Assembly: GCF_014196625.1 (NCBI RefSeq)
Contig: NZ_JACIDZ010000023.1
Span: forward strand, 1-50,792
Origin: Martelella radicis
Lineage (GTDB): Bacteria; Pseudomonadota; Alphaproteobacteria; Rhizobiales; Rhizobiaceae
Direction: 5' to 3'
DNA: 50,792 nucleotides
Shown here in pieces: positions 36,788 to 50,715 of the stretch (positions are counted from its first letter, which is position 1; each line of letters begins with the position of its first letter). Position numbers and translations under genes: made by a program. The notes beneath the pieces were generated by a model. The model was not told where the DNA came from. It worked only from the letters and a program-made list of their open reading frames with translations, and ran no database searches.

Positions 36788-37345
36788 TTATCGGACCGAA
36801 AGCGGCGCCGTGAAGGTCTTTCCTTCGACATCGGTCAGCGTCAGCACCATATCGCGTTGATATCGGCTCCTGCCGAGACAGCGAAATCCGGTGACGCCTG
36901 ACTGCCGAGCTGGCAACGAACGCTGTAGGCAAGCGCCTTGCAGGTCGAATAAGGCGCAAAGCTGTTATCCGCGATCTTGAGGACTTCCTTGTCCAGACGC
37001 GCGTAGACGCCATAGTCGAAAACCGGCTGATCGGCATTGTTCTTGTCCCCGAGCGTGGCACGGACAATGTGCCCCCCATGCGTTTCGGGGCCGCGGTCCA
37101 TGTAGACGCGCACCGAAGCGGTATCGTCGGTCAGCACGCCCTCGCTCATCGTGACGCGGGGATGCAGGTTGTCGAAGCGCTTGCCGAGGGGGCTGTAGAT
37201 GCCATCGAGGAAGAAACCATAGAAGAACACCGTGAAGACGAAGGACAGAACCCCAATACCGCACAGCTCGCAAGAACGGCTTTGGTCAGGAAGGTCAGAG
37301 CCACGCGACGCAGCCGGCAAAAGACCACCGCGCCGGGCCATTTTG
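36788..37345 (-). pseudogene. Decayed gene for a small membrane-anchored protein
   Basis: Three frames read in order give one plausible protein: a basic start and hydrophobic segment (RRVALTFLTKAVLASC, then GIGVLSFVFTVFFYGFFLDG), a soluble part (YSPLGKRFDNLHP, TDDTASVRVYMDRGPE) and a tail ending FTAPLSVR before TAA 36788-36790. Frame changes lie near 37255 and near 36880. I do not recognise the family. It sits at the edge of the island. Confidence 0.5.
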
Positions 37346-37603
37346 CAAAATGACGGCGTGGCGAACCTGCTGTTATGGTATGTCCGGACATAATCGCGTC
37401 CACGATCACGAGAGCACCTGGCCTGATGCCAGGTTCATGGACATTGAGATAAGACCCTGACCAAGAAACTGGAGAATGGATTTGAGTGACGTGGTCCGAT
37501 TTGATGCACAGCGTCGTAGGTCTTGAAGGGAATCGAACCGACGGCACGTTGCCGACTGAATCAATCCGCTGAAAGCGGATGGTTCTTCAATACTTTAATC
37601 AGT
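37346..37603. other. Non-coding stretch with two palindromes at the island's left side
   Basis: It contains TATGTCCGGACATA (37379-37392, perfect) and CCTGGC-CTGAT-GCCAGG (37417-37433). A fragment GGTTCGATTCCC on the minus strand near 37530 looks like a tRNA T-loop, but the stems do not pair. No gene is supported here. The stretch marks the change from chromosome-like genes to island genes. Confidence 0.4.
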
Positions 37604-38152: not shown

Positions 38153-38818
38153 TCAGGAATAAAGATCCAATCTCCCCAACGCTTCGTCAAGAATAGCCTC
38201 GGCGGCACGCAAGGCGCCCTCTTGAACCGGCTCGATCCGGATCCATTTTCCATAGCGGTCGTCCTTGGCGAGCTCGCGATATTCCTCCGAAACCTTTCTC
38301 ATCAAATTGCCGTCGGCTTCAAACTTGTCGTATGTGGTACTGACATAGTCTCGCTTCCCTTTGCGCGCGATCAGCTCACGAGAAAAGTCCACCGGGATGT
38401 CCAGCCAGATGTTGTAGGCAGGCACGATCGTGCTCAATCTCTGGTACTCAAGATCAAGGACAAACTGGCGCACGCGGGCACTCTCGTCGGGATCATCAGC
38501 ACGGGCGGCCTGGTAGGCAATATTTGAGGCCGCGTATCGGTCCGCGATAACCAGTTTGCCCTCTGCCAGCCACTTTCTTAAGTCCGGCTGTCCTTCCTGG
38601 CGATCAAGTGCAAAAAGAAGGGATAATGCGTAGGGGCTGTCGTTTCCAAGGTCGAAGTTTCCGGAGAGGTAGCGCCCAATCAGCTTGCCTGTCTCCGTAC
38701 GGTCGTAACCGGGCGACGCGACCATTTTGACGTCATGGGAGGCCGCGAGGACCGTTGAAAGTCCACAAGCCAACGTATTCTTCCCAGACCCATCGATGCC
38801 CTCGACCGTAATCAACAT
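38153..38818 (-). CDS. Thymidylate-kinase-like protein
   Basis: A 221-aa dNMP kinase with P-loop GIDGSGKNT (7-15), IADRYAASNIAYQ and a lid region RKGKRDYVSTTYDKFE, family length for Tmk. It phosphorylates dTMP or a related nucleotide. It is divergent from a ThyA-like gene across 114 bp, so it is likely a dedicated partner and not the housekeeping tmk, which normally lies with holB. A modified nucleotide as substrate is possible. Confidence 0.8.
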   Translation of the reverse strand: MLITVEGIDGSGKNTLACGLSTVLAASHDVKMVASPGYDRTETGKLIGRYLSGNFDLGNDSPYALSLLFALDRQEGQPDLRKWLAEGKLVIADRYAASNIAYQAARADDPDESARVRQFVLDLEYQRLSTIVPAYNIWLDIPVDFSRELIARKGKRDYVSTTYDKFEADGNLMRKVSEEYRELAKDDRYGKWIRIEPVQEGALRAAEAILDEALGRLDLYS

Positions 38819-38932
38819 GTTTTAGCCATTAGTCTGTCCCGCACTGATTGTGTTCACTATCTTCCAAGCCTTTTAAGTCTTATATGATTCCTCAAAGCTA
38901 GACATCTGATTTGACAAATCGTGGGTTGCTGC

Positions 38933-39955
38933 ATGCAGGTTTTTTCAGGGACCACAGCAGACGAAGCTTGGCGCATTGCCGCCAAGACCATCTTCGATGA
39001 TGCGGAGATCGGCGTTGAGCCGGGCCGAAACGGACCCGTCAAAGAACTCGTTCACGCGGCGTTCGTGATCAAGGAACCCCGCCAGCGGTGGGTTTTGAGC
39101 CGACGGCCCGCGATGAACCCGGCCTTTGCGATCGTTGAAGCCTTCTGGATCTTGAGCGGAAGAAACGATGCAAGGCTTGTGAATCGCTGGAATCCGTCGC
39201 TTCCCCATTTTGCTGGCGATACGTCGAGCTATCCGGGAGCCTACGGATACAGGCTGCGCCGGCATTTTTCGGTCGACCAACTCGACCGGGCGATCGATGC
39301 GTTGATCGCCAATCCCACCAGTCGCCAAGTGGCTCTGCAGATATGGAGCGCCGTGGACGACCTACCTGCGACGACAGGAGCGCCGCGGTCTGCCGACATA
39401 CCCTGCAACACCGGCTCTTTCTTAAGGGTGCGGCAGAACGAACTGCATTGGCTTCAAGTCCTGCGCAGTAATGACCTCAATCGCGGAACGCCCTATAATT
39501 TCGTTCAGTTCACCGTTTTGCAGGAAGTGGTTGCCGGGTGCTTGGGTGTAAGCGTTGGTCCATACACCCACGTCTGCAACAGCCTTCACGTATATCAGAA
39601 CGATCTTGATACGTTTTCCTTTGCACCCAAAAGCGCCTTGCGGTCAAACTCTAGCCTTCTTTTGCCAAAGAAAGAGGCTTTCGAGGCAATCTCAATCTTC
39701 GAAAGGGTACTCGAACGACTCGGCGACCCGGCGCTGACCGGCGCAGAGTGCACCGACATTATTAAACACGCCGTGCTACCGCCCGGCCATCACAACCTGT
39801 TGCTCATCGCAGCGGCCGATATTGCACGGCGCCTTGGCTGGGACGACGTTATGACAGAAGCGGCGCAAGGATGTTCCGACCCGCTACTGCTAGCAGTCTG
39901 GAAAAAATGGTGTGAACGGTGGGTTCGCTCTCGCGAACTAAGAAAGGCACTCTGA
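38933..39955 (+). CDS. Divergent thymidylate-synthase-fold protein
   Basis: A 340-aa protein. ThyA signatures are visible but altered: SRQVALQIW where ThyA has SRR, the nucleophile region IPCNTGSF with C158 but Asn in place of the usual His after Cys, RSNDLNRGTPYNFVQF (R178, D181 and N189 like RSaD...PFN) and HVCNSLHVY. It could methylate or hydroxymethylate a pyrimidine nucleotide, or bind one. ATG 38933 is used (weak ribosome binding site); GTG 38921 is possible. It runs into the phosphoesterase gene 7 bp later. Confidence 0.75.
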   Translation: MQVFSGTTADEAWRIAAKTIFDDAEIGVEPGRNGPVKELVHAAFVIKEPRQRWVLSRRPAMNPAFAIVEAFWILSGRNDARLVNRWNPSLPHFAGDTSSYPGAYGYRLRRHFSVDQLDRAIDALIANPTSRQVALQIWSAVDDLPATTGAPRSADIPCNTGSFLRVRQNELHWLQVLRSNDLNRGTPYNFVQFTVLQEVVAGCLGVSVGPYTHVCNSLHVYQNDLDTFSFAPKSALRSNSSLLLPKKEAFEAISIFERVLERLGDPALTGAECTDIIKHAVLPPGHHNLLLIAAADIARRLGWDDVMTEAAQGCSDPLLLAVWKKWCERWVRSRELRKAL

Positions 39956-39962
39956 GATCATA

Positions 39963-42221
39963 ATGGCAAAGAACGGCTTTATACTGCATGTCGCTGACCC
40001 TCATCTTTTTGAAAAGGAACCTGCCCGGGGTTTCCACGACCTGAAGGCCTCCGTCGAGGGTGTTACACAGGATACGAAAGAAGAAACATTCAAACTGACG
40101 CTCGAGCTGCTCGATAAGCGGTTGGCGAAAGAGGGCATCAAACTGGATGCGGTCGTATTTACTGGTGACGCCCAAGACAGGTTTTCTTCAGGCGGTCATA
40201 CTTGGCTTCGTGACACGCTTCTCGAAGTCTTCAAAGATCGCGGCATCACCAAAAAGAATATCGTCGCAACGCCTGGTAATCACGACGTCGATCGAAATCT
40301 CTTGGCGGGTAATCCTGCGAGATTTAAGGAGTTCATCGAAGTCTGGCGCAACGGAGAGAGCGTTACCCCTTGGCTTGATGTTACCGACAATGCAGAAAGC
40401 TCTTTGGCGCATAGGTTTGAGAACGAGGGCAAGACCTTCGAAATATATCCCATAAATTCCAGCCAGTGGTCGCAGACGAAGCTCAAGGCGCCGGCATCGA
40501 TTTTTTCCATGCTGCCGGAGCTGACGAAGAGCCTTACCGGTGTTGAACCAGACCTCGTCAAAAAAGCCTACGACGAGGTAATCCTGCCAAAGGTCGAGGA
40601 ACTCCTTAGTGCAGATATCGCTCGTATCTCACCGGACCAGCTGTTTTACCTCAGCAATCTCATGCAACACAGTGGGCGCGATGAGCGAAGGCTACGGATT
40701 GTCGCGCTCCACCATCATCTGACTGCGCCAAATGTCAGCGAGGAATTTAGAGCCTTCAACGACATTACCGACCTAAGCTTGCTCAGAGAGTTCCTGCGCG
40801 AGAACGAGGTGGATGTCGTGATTCATGGCCACAAGCACGTCGAAAACCTCACCTACGACTATGTTTACCCAAGTGACGGAGGATCGCTCGACCGTCCGCC
40901 GCATCGCATGATGGTGATCTCCGGAGGCGCGTTGGAAGTCGCCAAGGGCGCCTCCCCATTGCGCCTCATAAAGTTATCCGGATTACCGGGTGCGCCGGAA
41001 GTGGAAGTCGAGACCATTCCATTAGCTACGCGCGGGCTCAGCCTCAAAAGAGGCCCGAGTCTTAAAGGACGCGTTTGGCGCGAAAACCATGCGGTCGCCG
41101 GCGGACCGGTCATAATCAAGGGAACGGATATCAACGAGGTCTACATCCGGGCAGTGCGTGCGGCCCAAGAAGAGGCCCGCGGTGGAATGTTGATCGTCCA
41201 CCTCGATCTACCAAACACGACGACCGAAGACCGCGAGAACCTTCCTTTTCCGAGAAGCTATCCAGATCCGGATAGCGAGCCGTCTGGCTCTGCCGAACAC
41301 GCCTGGGTGCGTGACCTCGTGTCGTGGTGGCAGCTACCGCGATCGACATTGGAAGAACGTATTCCCTATATCCACGGTACCCGCCTTGAGCGTTTCGCTG
41401 GCCGTTTCAATCAGATCAAGCGCTTGACCAGCCTGCTGCGTCAGAACAAGACGACGTCGCGGGGCATAGCAACGCTGGTCGATCCGACGCGAGATTTTAC
41501 CGCTGATGGATCAAAGGAAGACTTTGCGTCCTTCTGCCTCATCCAATTTAAGTGGCATGTTGACAAGGTGGGGGGCCGCAACCTTCTGGACTGCATCGGC
41601 TATTATCGGGCGCAGGAATTTAAGCATTGGTGGCCGATCAACGTTGCGGAATTGAGAGAACTCCAACAACAAGTTGCCGCGGCTGTTGACGGTGAACCAG
41701 GCCGCATTACCACCATCGCCGCGGATGCAAGGGCAGTCCTCACTCGCGCACCAGGCCAGGTGGCTGTTCCGGTGATCGACCGATGGCTAGACCAGGCGCC
41801 GGAAAAGCTCGCTGGCCTCGCTACCCTGCTTGCTGGCGCTTCCAGCATACCGAATGGCACGGAGATCAAGACAGCGTGGAGCGAATTCCTCGCTTCCCAA
41901 GCTTCCGCAGCCGAGACCTCCAATTACAATCCAGAAGGCGTACCTGTAGCAGTCGACGGGCTGCAGATGCTAGCAAGGCTGATTGAGGAATTCTCAACCG
42001 ATCAAGCAGACGCTAACGAGCTTCGCGTTACGCTTCGCTCTCTAGCGGCACAAAACGAACGTTATGAAAAGTCGGCAAGAAATCGGGCGGCGTACGATAC
42101 TTGGGCTCCAATGGCGTCATACTATCTTGGGAAACTCGCCGATCTTACTCGTCCTATGATGTCCAAGTCCGAGGAACAAGGAACCGAAAGTTCCTCCGCA
42201 TTAGCAGCTCGGGAACAGTGA
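39963..42221 (+). CDS. Calcineurin-type phosphoesterase fused to a ThyA-like domain
   Basis: A 752-aa protein. Residues 1-about 330 are a metallophosphoesterase with all metal blocks: DPH (D12, H14), TGDAQD, GNHD (105-108), HHHLT and HGHKH (288-292). Residues about 390-610 resemble a divergent thymidylate synthase: FCLIQF with C525, then YYRAQEFKHWWPIN (R549, N560) in the place of the ThyA Arg and Asn motifs. The last 130 residues are helical and unknown. Fusion to a hydrolase suggests removal of phosphate from a nucleotide product or nuclease action. It is cotranscribed with the ThyA-like gene before it. Confidence 0.7.
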   Translation: MAKNGFILHVADPHLFEKEPARGFHDLKASVEGVTQDTKEETFKLTLELLDKRLAKEGIKLDAVVFTGDAQDRFSSGGHTWLRDTLLEVFKDRGITKKNIVATPGNHDVDRNLLAGNPARFKEFIEVWRNGESVTPWLDVTDNAESSLAHRFENEGKTFEIYPINSSQWSQTKLKAPASIFSMLPELTKSLTGVEPDLVKKAYDEVILPKVEELLSADIARISPDQLFYLSNLMQHSGRDERRLRIVALHHHLTAPNVSEEFRAFNDITDLSLLREFLRENEVDVVIHGHKHVENLTYDYVYPSDGGSLDRPPHRMMVISGGALEVAKGASPLRLIKLSGLPGAPEVEVETIPLATRGLSLKRGPSLKGRVWRENHAVAGGPVIIKGTDINEVYIRAVRAAQEEARGGMLIVHLDLPNTTTEDRENLPFPRSYPDPDSEPSGSAEHAWVRDLVSWWQLPRSTLEERIPYIHGTRLERFAGRFNQIKRLTSLLRQNKTTSRGIATLVDPTRDFTADGSKEDFASFCLIQFKWHVDKVGGRNLLDCIGYYRAQEFKHWWPINVAELRELQQQVAAAVDGEPGRITTIAADARAVLTRAPGQVAVPVIDRWLDQAPEKLAGLATLLAGASSIPNGTEIKTAWSEFLASQASAAETSNYNPEGVPVAVDGLQMLARLIEEFSTDQADANELRVTLRSLAAQNERYEKSARNRAAYDTWAPMASYYLGKLADLTRPMMSKSEEQGTESSSALAAREQ

Positions 42222-42812
42222 CCTTATCCCCGATTACGCGATCCCGTTCGACAAATTTGCGCCGGCGCACCGTTAGAAATGGCCCGCACTTCGGAGGCAA
42301 CAATGCAATGCATTGTGGTCGGTTAAATTCAAGTTCGTTGGCTACGTGTAACATCCAGTTGTGCATACGTAAGTGCGCTTAGCAGCTGAACGAGTTAAAA
42401 GTTTTTTGTGCATTGTTTACCGAAGAAAGTAAACCAATGCTCTGAGCCTACGCCTACGCAGCAGCTTGACGACAATCGTCGCGGTGCCTTGCAGCGGGAT
42501 CAGGACGTTGAGGTAGCATTCCATCTACCTCCATCGCCCCACAAACGAAGTTTGGCGTCGGGCGGCGGCCCCACCTGCGTTAGGTAAGTGGCGAGTGTGA
42601 TTTCCCCAGTATTGCTGAATATTGCTTCTACCGCCATCAATGCATGGTTTTTGAAGACCTAGCGCACTATGCGCCGTGGCTTCGCCTCTCTGCGAAACAG
42701 GTTGTGCGCCAATATTTTCGATAACGGCACTCGCTTCTAGAAGGAGTTTACCTACCCCTTGCAAATCTAGTCGTGTAGGATTATCTTACGCTTCGGTAAG
42801 GAGTTCGTACCA
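42222..42812. other. 590-bp gap between modules A and B
   Basis: No supportable gene on either strand. ACAATGC-AAT-GCATTGT (42300-42316) is a perfect inverted repeat 79 bp after the phosphoesterase stop and may act in termination. GC content falls relative to the chromosomal part. The last 30 bases hold the hairpin and ribosome binding site of the next operon. Confidence 0.4.
42786..42801 (+). promoter_or_regulatory. Small dyad overlapping the ACP-like gene's ribosome binding site
   Basis: CTTAC-GCTTCG-GTAAG abuts AAGGAG (42799-42804), nine bases before ATG 42813. It could be an operator for the XRE protein encoded one gene later or an RNA hairpin limiting ribosome access. Confidence 0.35.
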
Positions 42813-43118
42813 ATGACAAAAGACGAAGTCATGAATGCCATGCTTCAAGTGCTCGATCGCGTACAGTCGCTGAGTGGATGCCCAAGTCCTGCTCTCAAGG
42901 GCTCAGATGTTCCTGGTAAGGTGCTGGAAAGCTTCGACAGTACGGTTTGGCCGGTCGCGACTGGTTGGCTTGCGAAGAAGCTCGACATCATCATCCCCAA
43001 CGATGTCCATATCTTCGGAACGTTGGACGGAAAAACCCTCCTAACTATCGACGAAAGCGTTGACCTGGTCCTCGCGAAGAAGCAAAGCAAGCCCCCGATT
43101 ACGGTCGCGGCGGAGTAG
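42813..43118 (+). CDS. Acyl-carrier-protein-like small protein
   Basis: A 101-aa acidic helical protein. ESFDSTVWPVATGWLAKKL resembles ACP helix II, with S43 as candidate phosphopantetheine site (FDS in place of DSL), and IIIPNDVHIFGTLDGKTLLTIDESVDLVL matches the C-terminal half of stand-alone ACPs. ATG has GGAG nine bases upstream. It is the first gene of a five-gene operon, and an AcpS-like gene lies on the opposite strand of the same island, which strengthens the reading. The acyl or aminoacyl load is unknown. Confidence 0.6.
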   Translation: MTKDEVMNAMLQVLDRVQSLSGCPSPALKGSDVPGKVLESFDSTVWPVATGWLAKKLDIIIPNDVHIFGTLDGKTLLTIDESVDLVLAKKQSKPPITVAAE

Positions 43119-43121
43119 TAC

Positions 43122-43490
43122 ATGAGCGAAAAAGATAGACAAAAAAGAATTGCGGACCGAATTAAGGAGGCCCGGCAACTGTCAGGCCTGAGCCAGGCCC
43201 AGGCTGCGAAGATGCTGGAGAAGCATCGGCCGACGATCAGTGAGATCGAGAACGGCAATCGGAAAGTTTCAGCGACAGAGCTCGCGCAGTTCGCGGAAAT
43301 CTACGAGGTCTCAATCAACTATCTGATGGGAGCAGGCCCGGATCAAATGAATCCTTCTGACCCGAAGCTTCAGCTTGCGGCCAGAGAACTGAGCAAACTC
43401 AGCCCAGACGCGTTGAACAGTTTGATGCGCGCGCTTGCGGTCATCCAAGAGGACGACAAGGATGACGATTCCGATGACGGCGAAGCGTAA
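43122..43490 (+). CDS. XRE-family transcriptional regulator
   Basis: A 122-aa protein with helix-turn-helix RIKEARQLSGLSQAQAAKML and TISEIENGNRKV (residues about 10-65), followed by an acidic tail ending DDKDDDSDDGEA. It starts 3 bp after the ACP-like stop and overlaps the ImmA/IrrE gene. The HTH plus ImmA pair is the standard repressor-and-protease switch of mobile elements and defence operons. Confidence 0.9.
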   Translation: MSEKDRQKRIADRIKEARQLSGLSQAQAAKMLEKHRPTISEIENGNRKVSATELAQFAEIYEVSINYLMGAGPDQMNPSDPKLQLAARELSKLSPDALNSLMRALAVIQEDDKDDDSDDGEA

Positions 43491-44328
43491 TCTCATCATA
43501 CAGGCGTCCCAAGCGGCAGCCGAAGCCCGTGATCAAGCAGACGTCGACGATATCGATCCGATCGACGTCTACACGGTTGCGGATCGGCTCGGTTTGCGAG
43601 TGCGTTTTCTCAAGGTCAGTATGGAAGGGCTTTACAAGAAGGGCCCTCCTGCGATTACGTTTCTATCGTCACTGCGGCCGGTTCCAAGACGCGCCTTCAC
43701 GTGTGGACACGAGCTCGGACATCATTGGTTCGGGCATGGGTCAACGATTGATGAGCTTAAAGAGGACGAACGCAAGTCGTCTGATAAGCCAGAGGAAATT
43801 TTGGCTGATGCGTTTTCGTCGTTCTTGCTGATGCCATCGATCGGTATCCGGAGGGCTTTCGCTTCCCGCAAATGGGACATTTCGGCTCCATCACCGCTCC
43901 AAATAGCAACGGTAGCAAGCGAATTCGGCGTTGGATATGGGACCCTAATCTCTCATTTGACCTACGTGCTTCACCACATAGGTGAGGAGCAGCGGACCGC
44001 ATTACTGAAGACGAAACCTCAGCAGATACGGCGCTCTATTATCGCCGACGATACACTGACAGCTCTGCCGGTCTTCGACGGACACTCGCTGACCTCCACG
44101 GTCGACCTCGACATTGGCAATGGTATCGCGCTTCCCAAGCTCAGCGAGATCAAAGGCGAAGGTTTGGACTATCTGCAAGATGGCGGGGATTTCGCCATTT
44201 ATAAAGCGACAAAGCGCACCAAACTGAAGGTTCGGGCCGGCTTGCGTCAAATGACTGTGCGTATCGGCCCTACAGAATACGAAGGCTTGATGAAACACCG
44301 ACACGTTGAGGAGGAAAATGATGACTAA
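43474..44328 (+). CDS. ImmA/IrrE-type metallopeptidase
   Basis: A 284-aa protein with the zinc motif HELGHHWFGH and a downstream acidic ligand region (ADAFSSFLLMP), typical of ImmA/IrrE. These enzymes cleave a partner XRE repressor to induce the operon. ATG 43474 lies within the XRE gene with AAGGA upstream; ATG 43462 is an alternative. It overlaps the ThyA-like gene by 8 bp. Confidence 0.88.
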   Translation: MTAKRNLIIQASQAAAEARDQADVDDIDPIDVYTVADRLGLRVRFLKVSMEGLYKKGPPAITFLSSLRPVPRRAFTCGHELGHHWFGHGSTIDELKEDERKSSDKPEEILADAFSSFLLMPSIGIRRAFASRKWDISAPSPLQIATVASEFGVGYGTLISHLTYVLHHIGEEQRTALLKTKPQQIRRSIIADDTLTALPVFDGHSLTSTVDLDIGNGIALPKLSEIKGEGLDYLQDGGDFAIYKATKRTKLKVRAGLRQMTVRIGPTEYEGLMKHRHVEEENDD

Positions 44329-45121
44329 GTCCGGATCACCACGGTTGATTGAGGCAAGCGGTCTTTCGATCGCCTGGGGCCATGTCCTGTCTGTGCTGAC
44401 GGCACCCGGTTGCACGGAAATTTCGCCGCTGACACTTTCGATCACGGGTTTTGACAACGAGGGATACCCCGTGGAGAACCAGAATATTCGAGCGGCGCTC
44501 GATACTTGGCTGGAAATCACCGGCAAACGAGGGTGTGAAAATGTCGCATTCACGATTTTTCCAGAGCGGTATTATTTGCTGGCGCAAGGCAACCGCGCAG
44601 AGTTCTTTGAAATGTATCGAGAAGCCTTTCAACGCATCCAAGAATTAAACCCGCAAAACAACAGGAAAGGCTCCTATTTCCAGCGCCTGATAGATTTTGA
44701 AGGCGGGGGCAAGGGTTTCAATCAGTTGGAGTGGATCCTTGCCGAATACGAACGTCGCCCAAGCGGCCGCCGATCCAGATGGCAGGCGACAGCTTTCGAT
44801 CCCTATCGTGATGTCAGCCGAACATCGCTTCAAGAATTCCCATGTCTTCAGCAGGTGAGTTTTACGTTCTCCGAAACGAACGGCTTGATCGTCAACGCCT
44901 TTTATGCGACGCAGCAGATCATTCGAAAGGGATATGGAAACTACCTAGGCCTCAGCCGACTTGGTCGCTTCATGGCACATGAGATGGGATTGAAGATGGA
45001 ACGGCTCAACGTATTCGTTGGCGTCGCACAAGCGGACGATCTGAAAAAAACGGACCCGGATTTTCTTGCGATGATGGCCGTTATCAAGGCGGAACTGCAA
45101 AATGCCCCGGTTCCCGCGTGA
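44321..45121 (+). CDS. Divergent thymidylate-synthase-like protein
   Basis: A 266-aa protein. FPCLQQVSFTF places C175 where the ThyA nucleophile sits, and GLIVNAFYATQQIIRKGYGNYLGL stands in for the ThyA strand and Arg/Asn motifs. The N-terminal half (PLTLSITGFDNEG, NQNIRAALDTWL) is also like bacterial ThyA relatives found in phage-like operons. Folate and dUMP ligands are poorly kept, so the substrate may not be dUMP. GAGGAGG lies six bases before ATG 44321. It overlaps the next gene by 4 bp. Confidence 0.6.
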   Translation: MTKSGSPRLIEASGLSIAWGHVLSVLTAPGCTEISPLTLSITGFDNEGYPVENQNIRAALDTWLEITGKRGCENVAFTIFPERYYLLAQGNRAEFFEMYREAFQRIQELNPQNNRKGSYFQRLIDFEGGGKGFNQLEWILAEYERRPSGRRSRWQATAFDPYRDVSRTSLQEFPCLQQVSFTFSETNGLIVNAFYATQQIIRKGYGNYLGLSRLGRFMAHEMGLKMERLNVFVGVAQADDLKKTDPDFLAMMAVIKAELQNAPVPA

Positions 45122-46152
45122 CTGCTGAACGAAAACTCGCTTCGCAACCATTCACGATAGGCTCGAACCAATTTTCGAGCCTTGAGGTTACACCGGTTTT
45201 CGACGCCTATTGGCAATTCGCTGCGGAGCGGCAGGAAATCTATTTTCGAAGAATTGAGAGGCGGCATGGTCCTTGGACTCACGATCCAATCTTGAAGCAG
45301 TTTCGATTTACCAATGCCTATCGAGCCGCTGATCGTGTTAGCCAATACCTGATCCGCTCAGTGATCTACGAGCCGAACTTCGATCAAGATCCCGCAGAAG
45401 TTTTCTTTCGCACGATCCTGTTCAAGGTTTTCAATAAAATCGAGACCTGGGAAATCCTTACCGAGCAAGTTGGCGCGCTCTCATGGAAGGCGTTTAGACC
45501 CGCCGCGATCGATAAGGTCCTGTCCAAAGCTCAACAGAATGGGGGCCGAATATACTCTGCGGCCTATATAATGCCTCCCGTAAAATTGGGGCCGACTGGC
45601 GGGGTGAAGCACCGCGGACATCTGGCTCTTCTTGAACTCATGATGCGGGAACGGGTTTATGAACGCATTCAGGAGACAAAAAGCCTGAAGCAGGTCTACG
45701 AAATTTTGACAGCCCTTCCCTCGATAGGTCCATTTCTCGGGTATCAACTAGCGATCGATCTCAACTACTCGTCGCTTATCCATCATGAGGAAAGTGACTT
45801 TGTCGTCGCCGGCCCCGGAGCTCTCGACGGCATTTCAAAATGCTTCGTAAACGCCGATAATCTGCAGCCTGCCGATATTATTGAGTTCATGACCGACCGC
45901 CAGGAACTGGAGTTCGAGCGCTTAGGTCTGAACTTCAAATCTTTGTTTGGCCGCCGCCTGCAGCTTATCGACTGCCAGAACCTGTTTTGCGAAATCAGCA
46001 AATATTCCCGGGTGTCGCATCCTGACATCAATGGACGAGCGGGCCGCACCCGGATCAAACAGAGTTTTCGCGATCACGGCGACGTGCCTCGACCGTTCTT
46101 CCCGCCCAAATGGAATCTTGTCGTGCCGACAAGTGTCAGCCTGACGCGATAA
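45118..46152 (+). CDS. 5-hmdU DNA kinase helical-domain / aGPT-pyrophosphorylase-like protein
   Basis: A 344-aa protein that starts at GTG overlapping the previous stop (GTGA). QFRFTNAYRAADRVSQYLI (residues 61-79) is the signature of the helical family found in phage 5-hydroxymethyl-dU DNA kinases and alpha-glutamyl/putrescinyl thymine pyrophosphorylases. ALPSIGPFLGYQLAIDLNY (about 204-222) resembles a DNA-glycosylase helix-hairpin, followed by a conserved acidic stretch (HHEESDFVVAGPGALDG). Phage relatives hypermodify thymine in DNA. Partnership with a ThyA-like enzyme here suggests base modification or removal. Family call from memory of the motif. Confidence 0.6.
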   Translation: MTAERKLASQPFTIGSNQFSSLEVTPVFDAYWQFAAERQEIYFRRIERRHGPWTHDPILKQFRFTNAYRAADRVSQYLIRSVIYEPNFDQDPAEVFFRTILFKVFNKIETWEILTEQVGALSWKAFRPAAIDKVLSKAQQNGGRIYSAAYIMPPVKLGPTGGVKHRGHLALLELMMRERVYERIQETKSLKQVYEILTALPSIGPFLGYQLAIDLNYSSLIHHEESDFVVAGPGALDGISKCFVNADNLQPADIIEFMTDRQELEFERLGLNFKSLFGRRLQLIDCQNLFCEISKYSRVSHPDINGRAGRTRIKQSFRDHGDVPRPFFPPKWNLVVPTSVSLTR

Positions 46153-46510
46153 CGACTGCTGCCGCAGCGTTTTGCGTATGCGTAATACTCAGGAGCCAGG
46201 ACTTGATCTGCATTTTCTCAGCCCGAAGAGCGGCTTGGCCAGAAAGATGAATAGTCGGTTGACCAGCTGACGCGCGAACTTCGATCTCCGTCATAGCCGT
46301 CCCCTGCTGAAGACCACCAAGCACTTTCGAGACAGCCTCTTTGGCAGCAAATCGACCGGCAAGCCGGTCGATCCGGCTGGTGCTGTGCTCGGCTTCGGAG
46401 AGCTCGAATGAGGTGAATACTCGGCCTAGCACGACAAGATCGTCTAGGACGTAGAGTGCGCGAAACTGCGGAAGCTCCACCAGGTCAAGACCGACACCGA
46501 TGACCACCAC
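46136..46510 (-). CDS. AcpS-like holo-ACP synthase (phosphopantetheinyl transferase)
   Basis: A 124-aa protein with the two AcpS motifs: GVGLDLVEL (D9) and RLAGRFAAKEAVSK (E58, K62), which bind Mg and CoA. It attaches 4'-phosphopantetheine to a serine of an ACP. It starts at GTG three bases after the 64-aa gene stop and converges on the kinase-like gene with a 17-bp overlap. The housekeeping acpS usually lies near lepB and rnc, so this copy is probably dedicated to the island's ACP-like protein. Confidence 0.82.
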   Translation of the reverse strand: MVVIGVGLDLVELPQFRALYVLDDLVVLGRVFTSFELSEAEHSTSRIDRLAGRFAAKEAVSKVLGGLQQGTAMTEIEVRASAGQPTIHLSGQAALRAEKMQIKSWLLSITHTQNAAAAVVIASG

Positions 46511-46513
46511 GCG

Positions 46514-46708
46514 CTAACGTGCCGCGCTCTTGCGCAATTCCGGGTCCTTGATCCTACCAATGGCTTCCCGGCGCTCTTCTGAGGCCTTCTGAGCCTTCTG
46601 CAGGATCACTTCCATCGCCGGGCGATGTTTCTCGATCGCAGTCGAAACTTTTTCGCCGGATCTCGGTGGGCCGCTACGAGGCGAAAAACTTGCGCTTTTC
46701 CAAGCCAT
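46514..46708 (-). CDS. Small basic protein of unknown function
   Basis: A 64-aa protein, MAWKSASFSPRSGPPRSGE then a charged helix (EVILQKAQKASEERREAIGRI). GGAGG lies six bases before ATG, inside the end of the patatin gene, and the start is one base from that stop, so it is coupled. No family is recognised. Confidence 0.6.
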   Translation of the reverse strand: MAWKSASFSPRSGPPRSGEKVSTAIEKHRPAMEVILQKAQKASEERREAIGRIKDPELRKSAAR

Positions 46709-46709
46709 T

Positions 46710-48281
46710 TCATTCCTCCATTTCTTTGAACCGGTCTGCAAGCATACCAAAAAACTCTCTCACATCAGTTTCGATGCTGGTTATCATCGTACCAACAGTT
46801 TCGTCTTCCGGCAAATCCCGACCACCATCAATTTGCACGACAAAGCCTACTGGTCCGTCACCAATGGAAATGGGTATGCACAGGACCCATTTCAAATCGC
46901 TTCGAAGGGCCTTGCGACGCAACCGATGTTCCGGAGCCGCTAGACTGAACTCCGGAGACAATGGAGCGAGTTCGAACCAGCTATCGCCGGTTTTCCAGGC
47001 CTGCCCTGCCACCGTTCCATCGATCGGGATCAACATTCGTTCATCATGGTGTCCCTCATATCCGGTTGAATACCGGAGCCGCAAGGAACGCGTGTGTCCG
47101 ACATCCGGAATTGCAATCGCCACCCTGACCTTAGGGTTGCGCTGGTCGAGCGCGGCTTCGATGACGTCGTCGACGAGCCCTTTGGTGAAACGACAAGCCT
47201 CGGCATAGGTTTCAGGGGTTTGAAAGAGCCATTTGTCTAACTTGGCCGTTGCCGCCGTTTCTGCATCGAGGACCTCCTTAACGGCCCTATCGATGGACAG
47301 ATCAAACTCGAGAAGATGCAAGCTTGTTGAAAGCTCAAGCCGTTCAGCTTGGCCGGCAGCACGAAGATTAAGTTCGGAAGAACCGAACAATCCAGTTTGA
47401 ATGAAAGCACCCAGCCAGTTTAGCCGATTGAGGATTCGCCGTTCCGTGGTTGTCTGGATCTCAACGGCAAGGGTGATGGCATCAGGGTCAAGTTCGCGCT
47501 CTTCGTCAAACGACCATGCAGGGAGGTTTGAGACAATCCCCCCGTCCATATGCAAGTTTTCGTCAATGATCAGCGGTTCGAATATGATTGGAAGGGAGAT
47601 AGAGGCAGCGACCGCATCTGCTACCGGGACATTCGGTGTTCGCTCAGGAGAAAAAAGCTCCATCTTCCCGGTCGTCAGATTGGCGCTTACGATCTTGAGG
47701 ATAGGCCGACCGTCGCAGCCGTAGTCTCCCATTCGAACGACGCGTTCCGGCTCCGATGGGAACATTCGCTGCTGGAGAAGGATGCCAAGGGCTTCAGAAA
47801 ACTCCCGCGATCTGGCAAGTCCTGATAAGAGCGAAGTAACAACGCAACAGAGAAGAATTATCAACGCAGCGAAAATAGCTGTGGCGAGATAAATTCTACC
47901 CCATGCCAGGAGAGCGCCGACCAAGATTAGAGTGAGCGCAACGCCGACCAGCGAGGCGCATAAAATCGTCGGCAACATCGGCATCGCTGTGCGAAAAAGC
48001 CAGACTTTCCACCATCCCCATCTACCGAACAGATGCTTCGCCTGTTTGATGGAGGGTCTGATCTCACCAAGCCGCGAGATGACGGAAGATTTGTCGAGCG
48101 GGTTCAGAAGTTCATCCGCAGAGAACCCCGAGGCCTTTAGTGTTGCAACCAGAGCTCCAGCGGATGTGCCAGAGAGCCCCCTGAAATCAACACCCTTTGC
48201 TTCCAGCGCTCTGAGAGCGCCAAGATGAATCAGGGCCTTCGCACCGCCCCCGGCAAACGCCACAAACATTCGATGTGTCAA
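46710..48281 (-). CDS. Patatin-like phospholipase with membrane segment and GAF-like domain
   Basis: A 523-aa protein. The patatin blocks are GGGAKA (11-16, oxyanion hole), GTSAG (S40 nucleophile) and DGG (D246), forming the Ser-Asp dyad. A hydrophobic insert at about 102-152 would span or dip into the membrane twice. Residues about 375-515 look like a GAF sensor domain (LRLRYSTGYEG, CIPISIGDGPVGFVVQIDG). Patatin effectors in CBASS (CapV) degrade membrane lipids when activated by a nucleotide signal; here the GAF-like part is a candidate sensor. It heads the operon with the 64-aa and AcpS-like genes. Confidence 0.8.
   Translation of the reverse strand: MTHRMFVAFAGGGAKALIHLGALRALEAKGVDFRGLSGTSAGALVATLKASGFSADELLNPLDKSSVISRLGEIRPSIKQAKHLFGRWGWWKVWLFRTAMPMLPTILCASLVGVALTLILVGALLAWGRIYLATAIFAALIILLCCVVTSLLSGLARSREFSEALGILLQQRMFPSEPERVVRMGDYGCDGRPILKIVSANLTTGKMELFSPERTPNVPVADAVAASISLPIIFEPLIIDENLHMDGGIVSNLPAWSFDEERELDPDAITLAVEIQTTTERRILNRLNWLGAFIQTGLFGSSELNLRAAGQAERLELSTSLHLLEFDLSIDRAVKEVLDAETAATAKLDKWLFQTPETYAEACRFTKGLVDDVIEAALDQRNPKVRVAIAIPDVGHTRSLRLRYSTGYEGHHDERMLIPIDGTVAGQAWKTGDSWFELAPLSPEFSLAAPEHRLRRKALRSDLKWVLCIPISIGDGPVGFVVQIDGGRDLPEDETVGTMITSIETDVREFFGMLADRFKEMEE

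Positions 48282-48996: not shown

Positions 48997-50715
<1,719 letters not shown>

Follow-up and report, generated by a model that had tools for sequence, protein, structure and literature searches.

Why would a cellular operon combine an acyl carrier protein (ACP), a repressor paired with a protease, and two proteins with the folds of thymidylate synthases and of phage thymine-hypermodification proteins? This question is raised by five same-strand genes at 42813-46152 (plus strand) in a stretch of 50,792 nucleotides from Martelella radicis (contig NZ_JACIDZ010000023.1, positions 1 to 50,792 of the forward strand); this whole stretch is called the window below. According to the map of open reading frames (ORFs), the genes encode the ACP, an XRE repressor, an ImmA/IrrE metallopeptidase, a divergent protein with the fold of thymidylate synthase (ThyA), for which the label ThyA3 was coined in this analysis, and a stand-alone HMUDK_hel protein. 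A reading made from the sequence alone had proposed that this set forms an inducible system that would make, detect or remove a modified thymine. The interpretation favored here, with a probability of roughly 0.45, is that the operon encodes the central part of an inducible, horizontally mobile system against phages or mobile elements, and that this system acts through an altered deoxypyrimidine.

The core genes and their palindrome

The five genes are as codirectional and tightly packed as the sequence-only reading had placed them, with a 3-bp gap followed by overlaps of 17, 8, and 4 bp. For comparison, 84,980 species genomes were scanned for ThyA3, which gave 150 encoding stretches; the best 80 were used as loci together with five further loci. 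ThyA3 is present in the 80 genome loci by construction, as these were chosen by it, and the genome and viral-collection scans are pattern scans whose counts are lower bounds. Leaving out near-duplicates (L014, L026, L034, L037, L046, L048, L049, L064) and the sister-system loci L011 and L012 gives 75 non-duplicate loci. Neighbor counts within 6.5 kb of ThyA3 refer to 70 of them, additionally without L018, L024, L053, L056, and L066, where the ThyA3 ORF was lost to the ORF-overlap filter; for residue conservation only L034, L046, and L064 were left out. The exact order ACP-XRE-ImmA-ThyA3-HMUDK is found in 49 of the 75 loci, in several phyla that are only distantly related; this rules out a chance gene order and bears out the expectation that the order would be kept elsewhere. 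At least some of the misses stem from the ORF-overlap filter or from a contig end. Among the 70 loci, the neighborhood of ThyA3 contains ImmA in 68, HMUDK in 68, XRE in 60, ACP in 59, and the holo-ACP synthase AcpS in 57; MazG follows with 54, DCD with 31, a metallophosphoesterase-ThyA protein with 8, and patatin with 7.

ThyA3 (44321-45121, plus strand) counts 266 amino acids when read from the in-frame ATG at 44321, where it overlaps the ImmA gene by 8 bp. Pfam returns only a meaningless match (TPR_10, E=0.12). The AlphaFold2 model (pLDDT 93.2) matches thymidylate synthases in the PDB (E=2.3e-9) as well as the hydroxymethylases MilA and AfhB (E of 2e-9 to 3e-8 overall), which confirms the ThyA-like fold that had been supposed. 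The catalytic cysteine nucleophile is invariant (76/76), and this residue and the fold place the protein in the ThyA superfamily; an asparagine that we take to be the base-contacting residue is invariant as well (76/76). In type I cassettes, the kind present in the window, other residues stand where ThyA has the Arg, Ser, Asp, and His/Tyr of its phosphate, folate, and ribose sites (presumably Arg166, Ser167, Asp169, and His207/Tyr209 in E. coli numbering). The residue equivalences come from aligning the family by MAFFT to the ThyA of this genome and from the fold match, as hhalign gave no useful alignment. The changed site residues rule out a canonical thymidylate synthase, and against the NCBIfam model for the methanogen enzyme (TIGR03283) the protein reaches E=2.8e-11 with 43 bits, the cut-off being 174.55; the genome's own ThyA lies on contig C4.

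The HMUDK_hel protein (45118-46152, plus strand; GTG start, 344 amino acids, 4-bp overlap with the ThyA3 gene) matches family PF18723 at 1e-107, with 360 bits against a cut-off of 25, and its residues 25-305 cover positions 1-280 of the 281 in the profile. Among predicted structures, its model (pLDDT 91) resembles the helical half of the 5-hydroxymethyldeoxyuridine (5-hmdU) DNA kinase of Bacillus phage SP10 (E=5e-14); the SP10 protein counts 637 amino acids, and the TM-score is 0.43 by its length and 0.76 by that of the HMUDK_hel protein (TMq). Further matches of this kind are to Delftia phage PhiW-14 (E=1e-8), to clade 1 of aGPT-Pplase (E=1e-9), and to an amino acid:DNA transferase (E=1.8e-3, probability 1.00). 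As had been expected from the sequence, the protein thus has the helical 5-hmdU-kinase or amino-acid:DNA-transferase/aGPT-Pplase fold. A full 5-hmdU DNA kinase is ruled out, since nothing outside residues 25-305 is matched and no N-terminal P-loop kinase half is recognizable in Pfam, PHROGs, or NCBIfam.

The XRE gene (43122-43490, plus strand), which starts after the 3-bp gap behind the ACP gene, encodes a CapH-like repressor (PF01381, 4e-15; PADLOC capH, 1.1e-13). The ImmA/IrrE gene (43435-44328, plus strand) encodes a CapP-like metallopeptidase with an HExxH motif (PF06114, Peptidase_M78, 7e-14; PADLOC capP, 3.1e-15). For this pair of repressor and HExxH metallopeptidase in one operon, capH and capP are the best PADLOC models, and the motif is present in 71 of 74 family members. 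The longest ImmA/IrrE ORF starts with TTG at 43435 (297 amino acids), while the true start is perhaps the in-frame ATG at 43474, which accounts for the 17-bp overlap with XRE.

Ahead of the ACP gene lies a putative XRE operator, O1, with the sequence GTAGGATTATCTTAC (42775-42789), which has one mismatch to the palindrome GTAAGA-N3-TCTTAC. A second, weaker operator-like site with two mismatches (42796-42810) is found 21 bp beyond O1, and in many aligned regions a GTAAG-like further half-site comes after the second site. The likely promoter, as read from the sequence, occupies 42759-42787 (plus strand), with a -35 element TTGCAA (42759-42764), a 17-bp spacer, and a -10 element TATCTT (42782-42787) inside O1. 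The palindrome was searched for in the 1.6 kb ahead of ImmA (or HMUDK) in the 75 loci and the window, i.e., in 76 regions. Upstream of ACP it is exact in 54 of these, has one mismatch in 11, including the window, and two in 3; with L066 and L086 included after anchoring on the correct ImmA, 70 of the 76 regions have it with at most two mismatches. Random 415-bp windows from the same loci, true sites included, gave a site with 0-1 mismatch in 23 of 1,220 draws. When 14 genomes were searched in full, six of them, each carrying a type I cassette, had exactly one exact site apiece, and the reversed control had 0; the exact palindrome was absent from G754, where the cassette runs off the contig end, from two sister-system genomes and from five second-type genomes. 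The window's genome has one other site at one mismatch, the reversed control giving five. Many proteobacterial and cyanobacterial loci have a TTGAC-like -35 element ahead of the palindrome and the -10 element inside it, and in Bacteroidota the palindrome precedes a TATATTTG-like element; we take these to be the promoter types of the respective groups. XRE would be the protein that binds the palindrome and, if so, appears to serve this one operon. The conserved putative operator lends support to the proposal that the system may be inducible.

The ACP (42813-43118, plus strand; 101 amino acids) has no match in Pfam, PADLOC, PHROGs, or NCBIfam. A 40-member profile compared with the PDB hits mainly acyl carrier proteins, weakly (best E=0.0072), and its single invariant residue, Ser43, stands in a DSL-like motif and aligns with the phosphopantetheine serine of the PDB carriers. 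This serine is conserved in 64 of 65 members, the exception being L030 (8496-8711), where the palindrome is missing too and which may be a degenerate copy or the result of a misread frame. The AcpS gene (46136-46510, minus strand) belongs to the holo-ACP synthase family (PF01648, 1.4e-9; TIGR00556, 9e-22, above the cut-off; PDB AcpS, 2e-16), and Asp9 and Glu58 are both conserved in 63 of 63 members. The earlier suggestion that the ACP presents a group for attachment has become likelier, as the serine is conserved and the cassette has an AcpS of its own; among the recurrent neighbors, however, no donor-loading enzyme is recognized. The role of the ACP is the most novel question that the cassette raises.

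Related loci, neighbors, and spread

A second type of cassette (L122:6814-12156, L123:5167-10843, L124:7670-13346, L126:7118-13850) consists of an ACP-like ORF, XRE, ImmA, a papain-like C1 peptidase, and a ThyA3 relative, with MazG_C in addition. The peptidase has a Pfam match in L122 and L126, and DCD is found in L123 and L124. No HMUDK was found within the stretch searched in these four loci, and a UDG-family protein stands in its place (Pfam, 6.6e-10, in L123; BLAST homologs in L122, L124, and L126, the last without a Pfam match of its own). An ACP-like ORF lies directly ahead of XRE in type I and in each of the five second-type loci with XRE-ImmA that were read, of which four showed no HMUDK; this rules out that the ACP is tied to HMUDK only. 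The fifth, L136 on a viral contig, combines the second-type operon with HMUDK and thyA1. The ACP profile supports the ORFs of L123 and L124 (E of about 1e-4, nine-sequence set) and hardly that of L122; those of L126 and L136 have a DSL motif by eye, without profile support. A SIR2-STAND protein adjoins the second-type copy in L122.

A sister system (L011:5195-11135, L012:9393-14482; families tested in L011) has the order ThsB_TIR, Nmad2, ThyA with an extension of about 300 amino acids, and HMUDK. A CBASS-type CapV lipase (NF041079, E=4e-86) is present in addition in L011, and a TylF-like methyltransferase in L012; in both loci, where HMUDK goes with an ordinary ThyA, profile search found no ACP. 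Across the loci, the partner is of one or the other of two enzyme folds (HMUDK or UDG), and the ACP is in most cases, though not in all, found together with ThyA3. The viral collection yielded four ThyA3 loci, compared with the 150 stretches in the species genomes. All four (L131:4449-7709, L132:4409-8473, L133:3474-6732, L134:3148-7942) contain XRE-ImmA-ThyA3; the ACP profile detects a carrier in L131 and L132 and, less strongly, in L133 and L134. L131 has an exact palindrome, L132 and L133 have one with two mismatches, and L134 has one with three. Since ThyA3 is so rare there, with four loci as a lower bound, a hypermodification set belonging to phages themselves is disfavored. Directly 3' of HMUDK, a radical-SAM-like protein (CxxxCxxC, by eye) is seen on the viral contigs L132 (8494-9543) and L144 (6002-6967).

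The cassette is rare and patchy, with 8 of 397 genomes of the order (four at E<1e-100, four at 1e-23 to 1e-29) and 4 of 398 genomes sampled from the phylum, window included. In a tree of 76 ThyA3 rows, the Bacteroidota form one group and the Cyanobacteriota another, six changes are needed for Pseudomonadota, and one row from Verrucomicrobiota falls inside the ten-row clade of the window. This pattern fits horizontal movement without proving it.

Some partners recur outside the core. The MazG protein of L010 carries MazG_C (PF18722, 2e-78) and the DCD protein of L008 is dCTP-deaminase-like (4e-13); a search for MazG_C elsewhere in the window's genome gave no match, but neither did its controls, so that absence is not proven. 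A DUF1643 protein (PF07799, E=2e-50; L052:5487-5975) stands beside the cassette in five cyanobacterial loci (L052, L036, L038, L041, L061), and DUF1643-like ORFs are seen by eye upstream of it in the viral loci L131 and L133. A family of about 180 amino acids (HDxRNHxDI...KHYGLHxAKY, by eye) adjoins DCD or the cassette in L016 (2332-2880), L008, L009, L013, L015, L032, and L072. Two of its members have no Pfam match, it may stand in for MazG in L008 and L032, and a similar ORF is present at L125:8130-8765.

In the window, AcpS is followed on the minus strand by a small protein (46514-46750; in-frame ATG at 46708) without a Pfam match, with profile matches in nine loci including duplicates, and by a patatin-like phospholipase (46710-48281; PF01734, 3e-28) with a hydrophobic stretch at about residues 101-158 by hydropathy. 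A GAF-like domain suspected by eye at the patatin C-terminus found no match in a PDB search, and that reading was dropped. On the other side of the core lie three further genes, which the sequence-only reading had left unmentioned, as it had AcpS, the patatin, and the operator. The first, an accessory gene, is a dTMP-kinase-like tmk (38153-38818, minus strand; PF02223, 1.1e-20), which adjoins the ACP cassette in one further locus, L067. It is followed by thyA1 (38921-39955, plus strand), which is thymidylate-synthase- or pyrimidine-hydroxymethylase-like (PF00303, 7e-22; phrog_5131, 6.5e-56) and which retains, by motif alignment, the Cys, Arg-Ser, and Asp, the latter three presumably being residues of the phosphate/folate site. 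The third, likewise accessory, encodes a metallophosphoesterase-ThyA fusion (39963-42221, plus strand; PF00149, 2.3e-15; PF00303, 9e-4, below the cut-off), which matches the NCBIfam DS9_1 anti-phage phosphoesterase at 1.7e-20, but with 73 bits against a cut-off of 420. Further right, a large serine recombinase (48997-50682, plus strand; PF00239, PF07508, PF13408), likely the mobility gene, overlaps with its 3' end a tRNA-Met (50639-50715, minus strand). The cassette probably sits in a genomic island of about 13 kb, because synteny with same-genus genomes stops at about 37,260-37,420, its left edge, and because the recombinase ends inside the tRNA-Met. No att repeat linking the tRNA-Met with the left edge was found; the contig stops 77 bases beyond the tRNA. 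Far from the island, at the left contig end (469-4539), an FtsH-like AAA+ protease-type protein is followed by a MobA/relaxase-like protein, both labeled by eye.

How the cassette may work

In a resting cell, XRE would sit on the palindrome over or beside the promoter and keep the operon silent. On infection or replication damage, ImmA would cleave XRE, as its family membership suggests by analogy with CapP/CapH and PprI/DdrO. The freed enzymes would then act on the dU/dT nucleotide pool: a deoxyuridylate would be activated at C5 by the ThyA-type cysteine of ThyA3; the ACP, given its phosphopantetheine by the AcpS of the cassette, would supply or carry a group for attachment; and the 5-substituted base, either as a nucleotide or within DNA, would be acted on by the HMUDK_hel protein. 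The DNA synthesis of the invader would be poisoned or marked by the product, and in the subtype of the window the membrane-type patatin may add cell killing. A defence role is suggested because the operon has repressor-protease control of the capH/capP type (PMC10904395), because its spread is rare and patchy, and because thymidylate-synthase and 5-hmdU-kinase domains are among those validated in defence (PMC13092281).

The chemistry may be specified further, in a form that is for now doubtful. An acyl or aminoacyl thioester on the ACP could replace methylene-folate as the electrophile of ThyA3, giving a 5-acyl-type deoxyuridylate that would be processed in invader DNA by HMUDK_hel or, in the second type, by UDG. 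In its support, type I ThyA3 lost the folate- and phosphate-site residues and kept Cys and Asn, and an ACP-like ORF precedes XRE in second-type loci as well, while HMUDK loci with an ordinary ThyA show none (L011, L012). Against it, no ACP was found with the ThyA3 relative of L125, so ThyA3 can exist without one, no AcpS was found in the second type, and the ACP could belong with XRE/ImmA.

Several observations weigh against the defence interpretation or parts of it. Defence families turn up in the flanking genes and in the control alike: of 231 flanking ORFs, a sample of 148 was drawn, of which all but the 13 longest, 135 in number, were scanned with PADLOC, and among the matches listed, which cover 25 of 188 families, a total inflated by overlapping GajB models, GajB and AbiEii occur in three ORFs each and SoFic in two. 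The 106 control ORFs from the window's own genome gave 30 families, with mad3 in six and mad8 in five, above any listed flank family. Some loci have defence-type neighbors: a Gabija GajB (E 1e-136) adjoins the patatin in L013, and 8 of the 75 loci have an AbiEii-like cluster (one member checked by Pfam). The palindrome was not found in L030, L070, L073, and L083, two more regions being too short; the cassettes of L070 and L073 also showed neither XRE nor ImmA. L122, L123, L124, and L126 showed no AcpS within the stretch searched, and L125 has DCD, a ThyA3 relative, and UDG (1.3e-28) with no ACP, XRE, or ImmA found. Second-type ThyA3 relatives retain an Arg that type I lost. Compared with the PDB, the HMUDK_hel model gives the 5-PmdU glycinyltransferase of Pseudomonas phage PaMx and DNA glycosylases first, weakly (E=0.067 and above, TM 0.32-0.36), and its profile found no relative among PDB sequences. 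Finally, no loading enzyme for the ACP is recognized among the recurrent neighbor clusters, no obvious toxin or nuclease in the core, and the patatin is seen only in the clade of the window.

That patatin is the starting point for another explanation, namely that ThyA3, HMUDK, and ACP produce a small messenger of nucleotide type, which would activate an effector, patatin here and TIR or CapV in the sister loci. Of the ten rows in the clade of the window, all nine that can be assessed have the patatin, as does L018 outside the tree; AcpS lies in between or beside in eight of the nine (L020 has DCD there), GxSxG is kept in 8/9 and DG[GA] in 9/9, with a long hydrophobic stretch in most. The ThsB-type TIR, Nmad2, and ThyA of the sister HMUDK system, and the CapV lipase of L011, point the same way. 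Yet patatin comes within 6.5 kb in the mere seven of 70 loci counted above, and the neighbor clusters of other cassettes show no recurrent effector family, so signaling of this kind seems unlikely. Among the nine window proteins scanned there is no CD-NTase either, which also rules out a CBASS, the patatin reaching 24 bits with CBASS_lipase against a cut-off of 200. Rather less probable still is a DNA hypermodification that marks the DNA of the host or of the element as self, in the way of phage thymine hypermodification. The fold match of HMUDK_hel to the SP10 and PhiW-14 proteins and the thyA1 and tmk beside the cassette speak for it, and MazG and dCTP-deaminase-like partners could prepare dU-type nucleotides; the single-operon palindrome and repressor-protease pair, however, argue for induced rather than constant expression, no restriction enzyme is recognized in the core, and the HMUDK_hel protein is without a recognizable P-loop kinase half.

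The cassette might conversely be directed at modified phages, recognizing their hypermodified thymines and removing or capping them. The weakly DNA-glycosylase-like fold of HMUDK_hel, the UDG-family protein in four second-type loci without HMUDK, and another UDG in L125 agree with such a defence; it leaves the synthetic-looking ThyA3, ACP, and AcpS unexplained, only five second-type loci were read, and the L126 homolog is without a Pfam match, so that it must be rated improbable, about on a par with self-marking or slightly below. Least probable of all is a small nucleoside natural-product pathway on mobile elements. MilA, a CMP hydroxymethylase that we take to belong to mildiomycin synthesis, is among the structural neighbors of ThyA3, and ACPs are used in natural-product pathways; against this stand the one conserved palindrome with XRE/ImmA and the recurrent neighbor clusters, in which no ketosynthase, adenylation, export, or resistance gene is recognized.

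Comparison with known systems

If the inducible defence interpretation is right, bacteria of several phyla have in common an immune cassette in which an ACP helps to make an unusual DNA precursor; we know of no ACP-aided DNA-precursor chemistry in immunity. The stand-alone HMUDK_hel and MazG_C families would then have a function in cells, and phage DNA-hypermodification enzymes would be linked to host defence, with the palindrome, the ACP serine, and the ThyA3 cysteine as handles for testing.

The ThyA fold is shared with the CMP hydroxymethylase MilA (TMq 0.60) and with the dCMP hydroxylase AfhB of phage HY126 (TMt 0.69). In a profile alignment, ThyA3 has Asn where MilA has Asp, and compared with ThyA it lacks several phosphate/folate-site residues. 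Phage thymine hypermodification, as in SP10 and PhiW-14, has in common with the cassette the HMUDK_hel/aGPT-Pplase fold and a ThyA-type enzyme nearby; SP15, M6, and PaMx11 are presumably further phages of this kind. Unlike these, the protein of the window is without a P-loop hmdU kinase domain and belongs to a cellular operon that also encodes a repressor, a protease, and an ACP, with AcpS alongside. Papers of 2013 and 2015 reportedly predicted such nucleotide-modification neighborhoods, and part of the gene set may already be named there.

The CapH/CapP pair of CBASS and the DdrO/PprI pair likewise consist of an XRE protein and an ImmA/IrrE metallopeptidase. The available part of one paper states that cleavage by PprI/DdrO, and by CapP/CapH as cited there, is stimulated by single-stranded DNA (PMC10904395). 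In contrast to both, the pair described here lies inside an operon between ACP and ThyA3, has its own palindrome, and is accompanied by no CBASS synthase.

The closest experimental precedent is DefensePredictor (2026). In the portion of the paper that was available, thymidylate synthase and 5-hydroxymethyluracil kinase are among the domains newly validated in E. coli defence systems, aGPT-Pplase, MazG, MazG-C, and dUTPase are among the domains of eight highlighted predicted systems, and the legend of Fig. 3 abbreviates TS, dNMPk, 5hmdUk, NMAD, and MPP (PMC13092281). The cassette thus has the thymidylate-synthase and 5-hmdU-kinase domain types in common with this precedent, where the two may or may not share one system, and the sister loci L011 and L012, with ThsB_TIR, Nmad2, ThyA, and HMUDK, may be of the DefensePredictor kind (PMC13092281). 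The sequence-only reading had known no described system with this set. That claim needs narrowing, given the two validated domain types; in the same available text, 'acyl carrier' has 0 occurrences and no XRE/ImmA is named with those domains (PMC13092281). The cassette is widespread and, as far as the open-licence literature searched shows, uncharacterized, and its broader kind is that of a nucleotide-modification conflict system. What is new compared with the systems above is that one cassette unites a divergent ThyA with an ACP, an AcpS dedicated to it, and a palindromic putative operator that is conserved.

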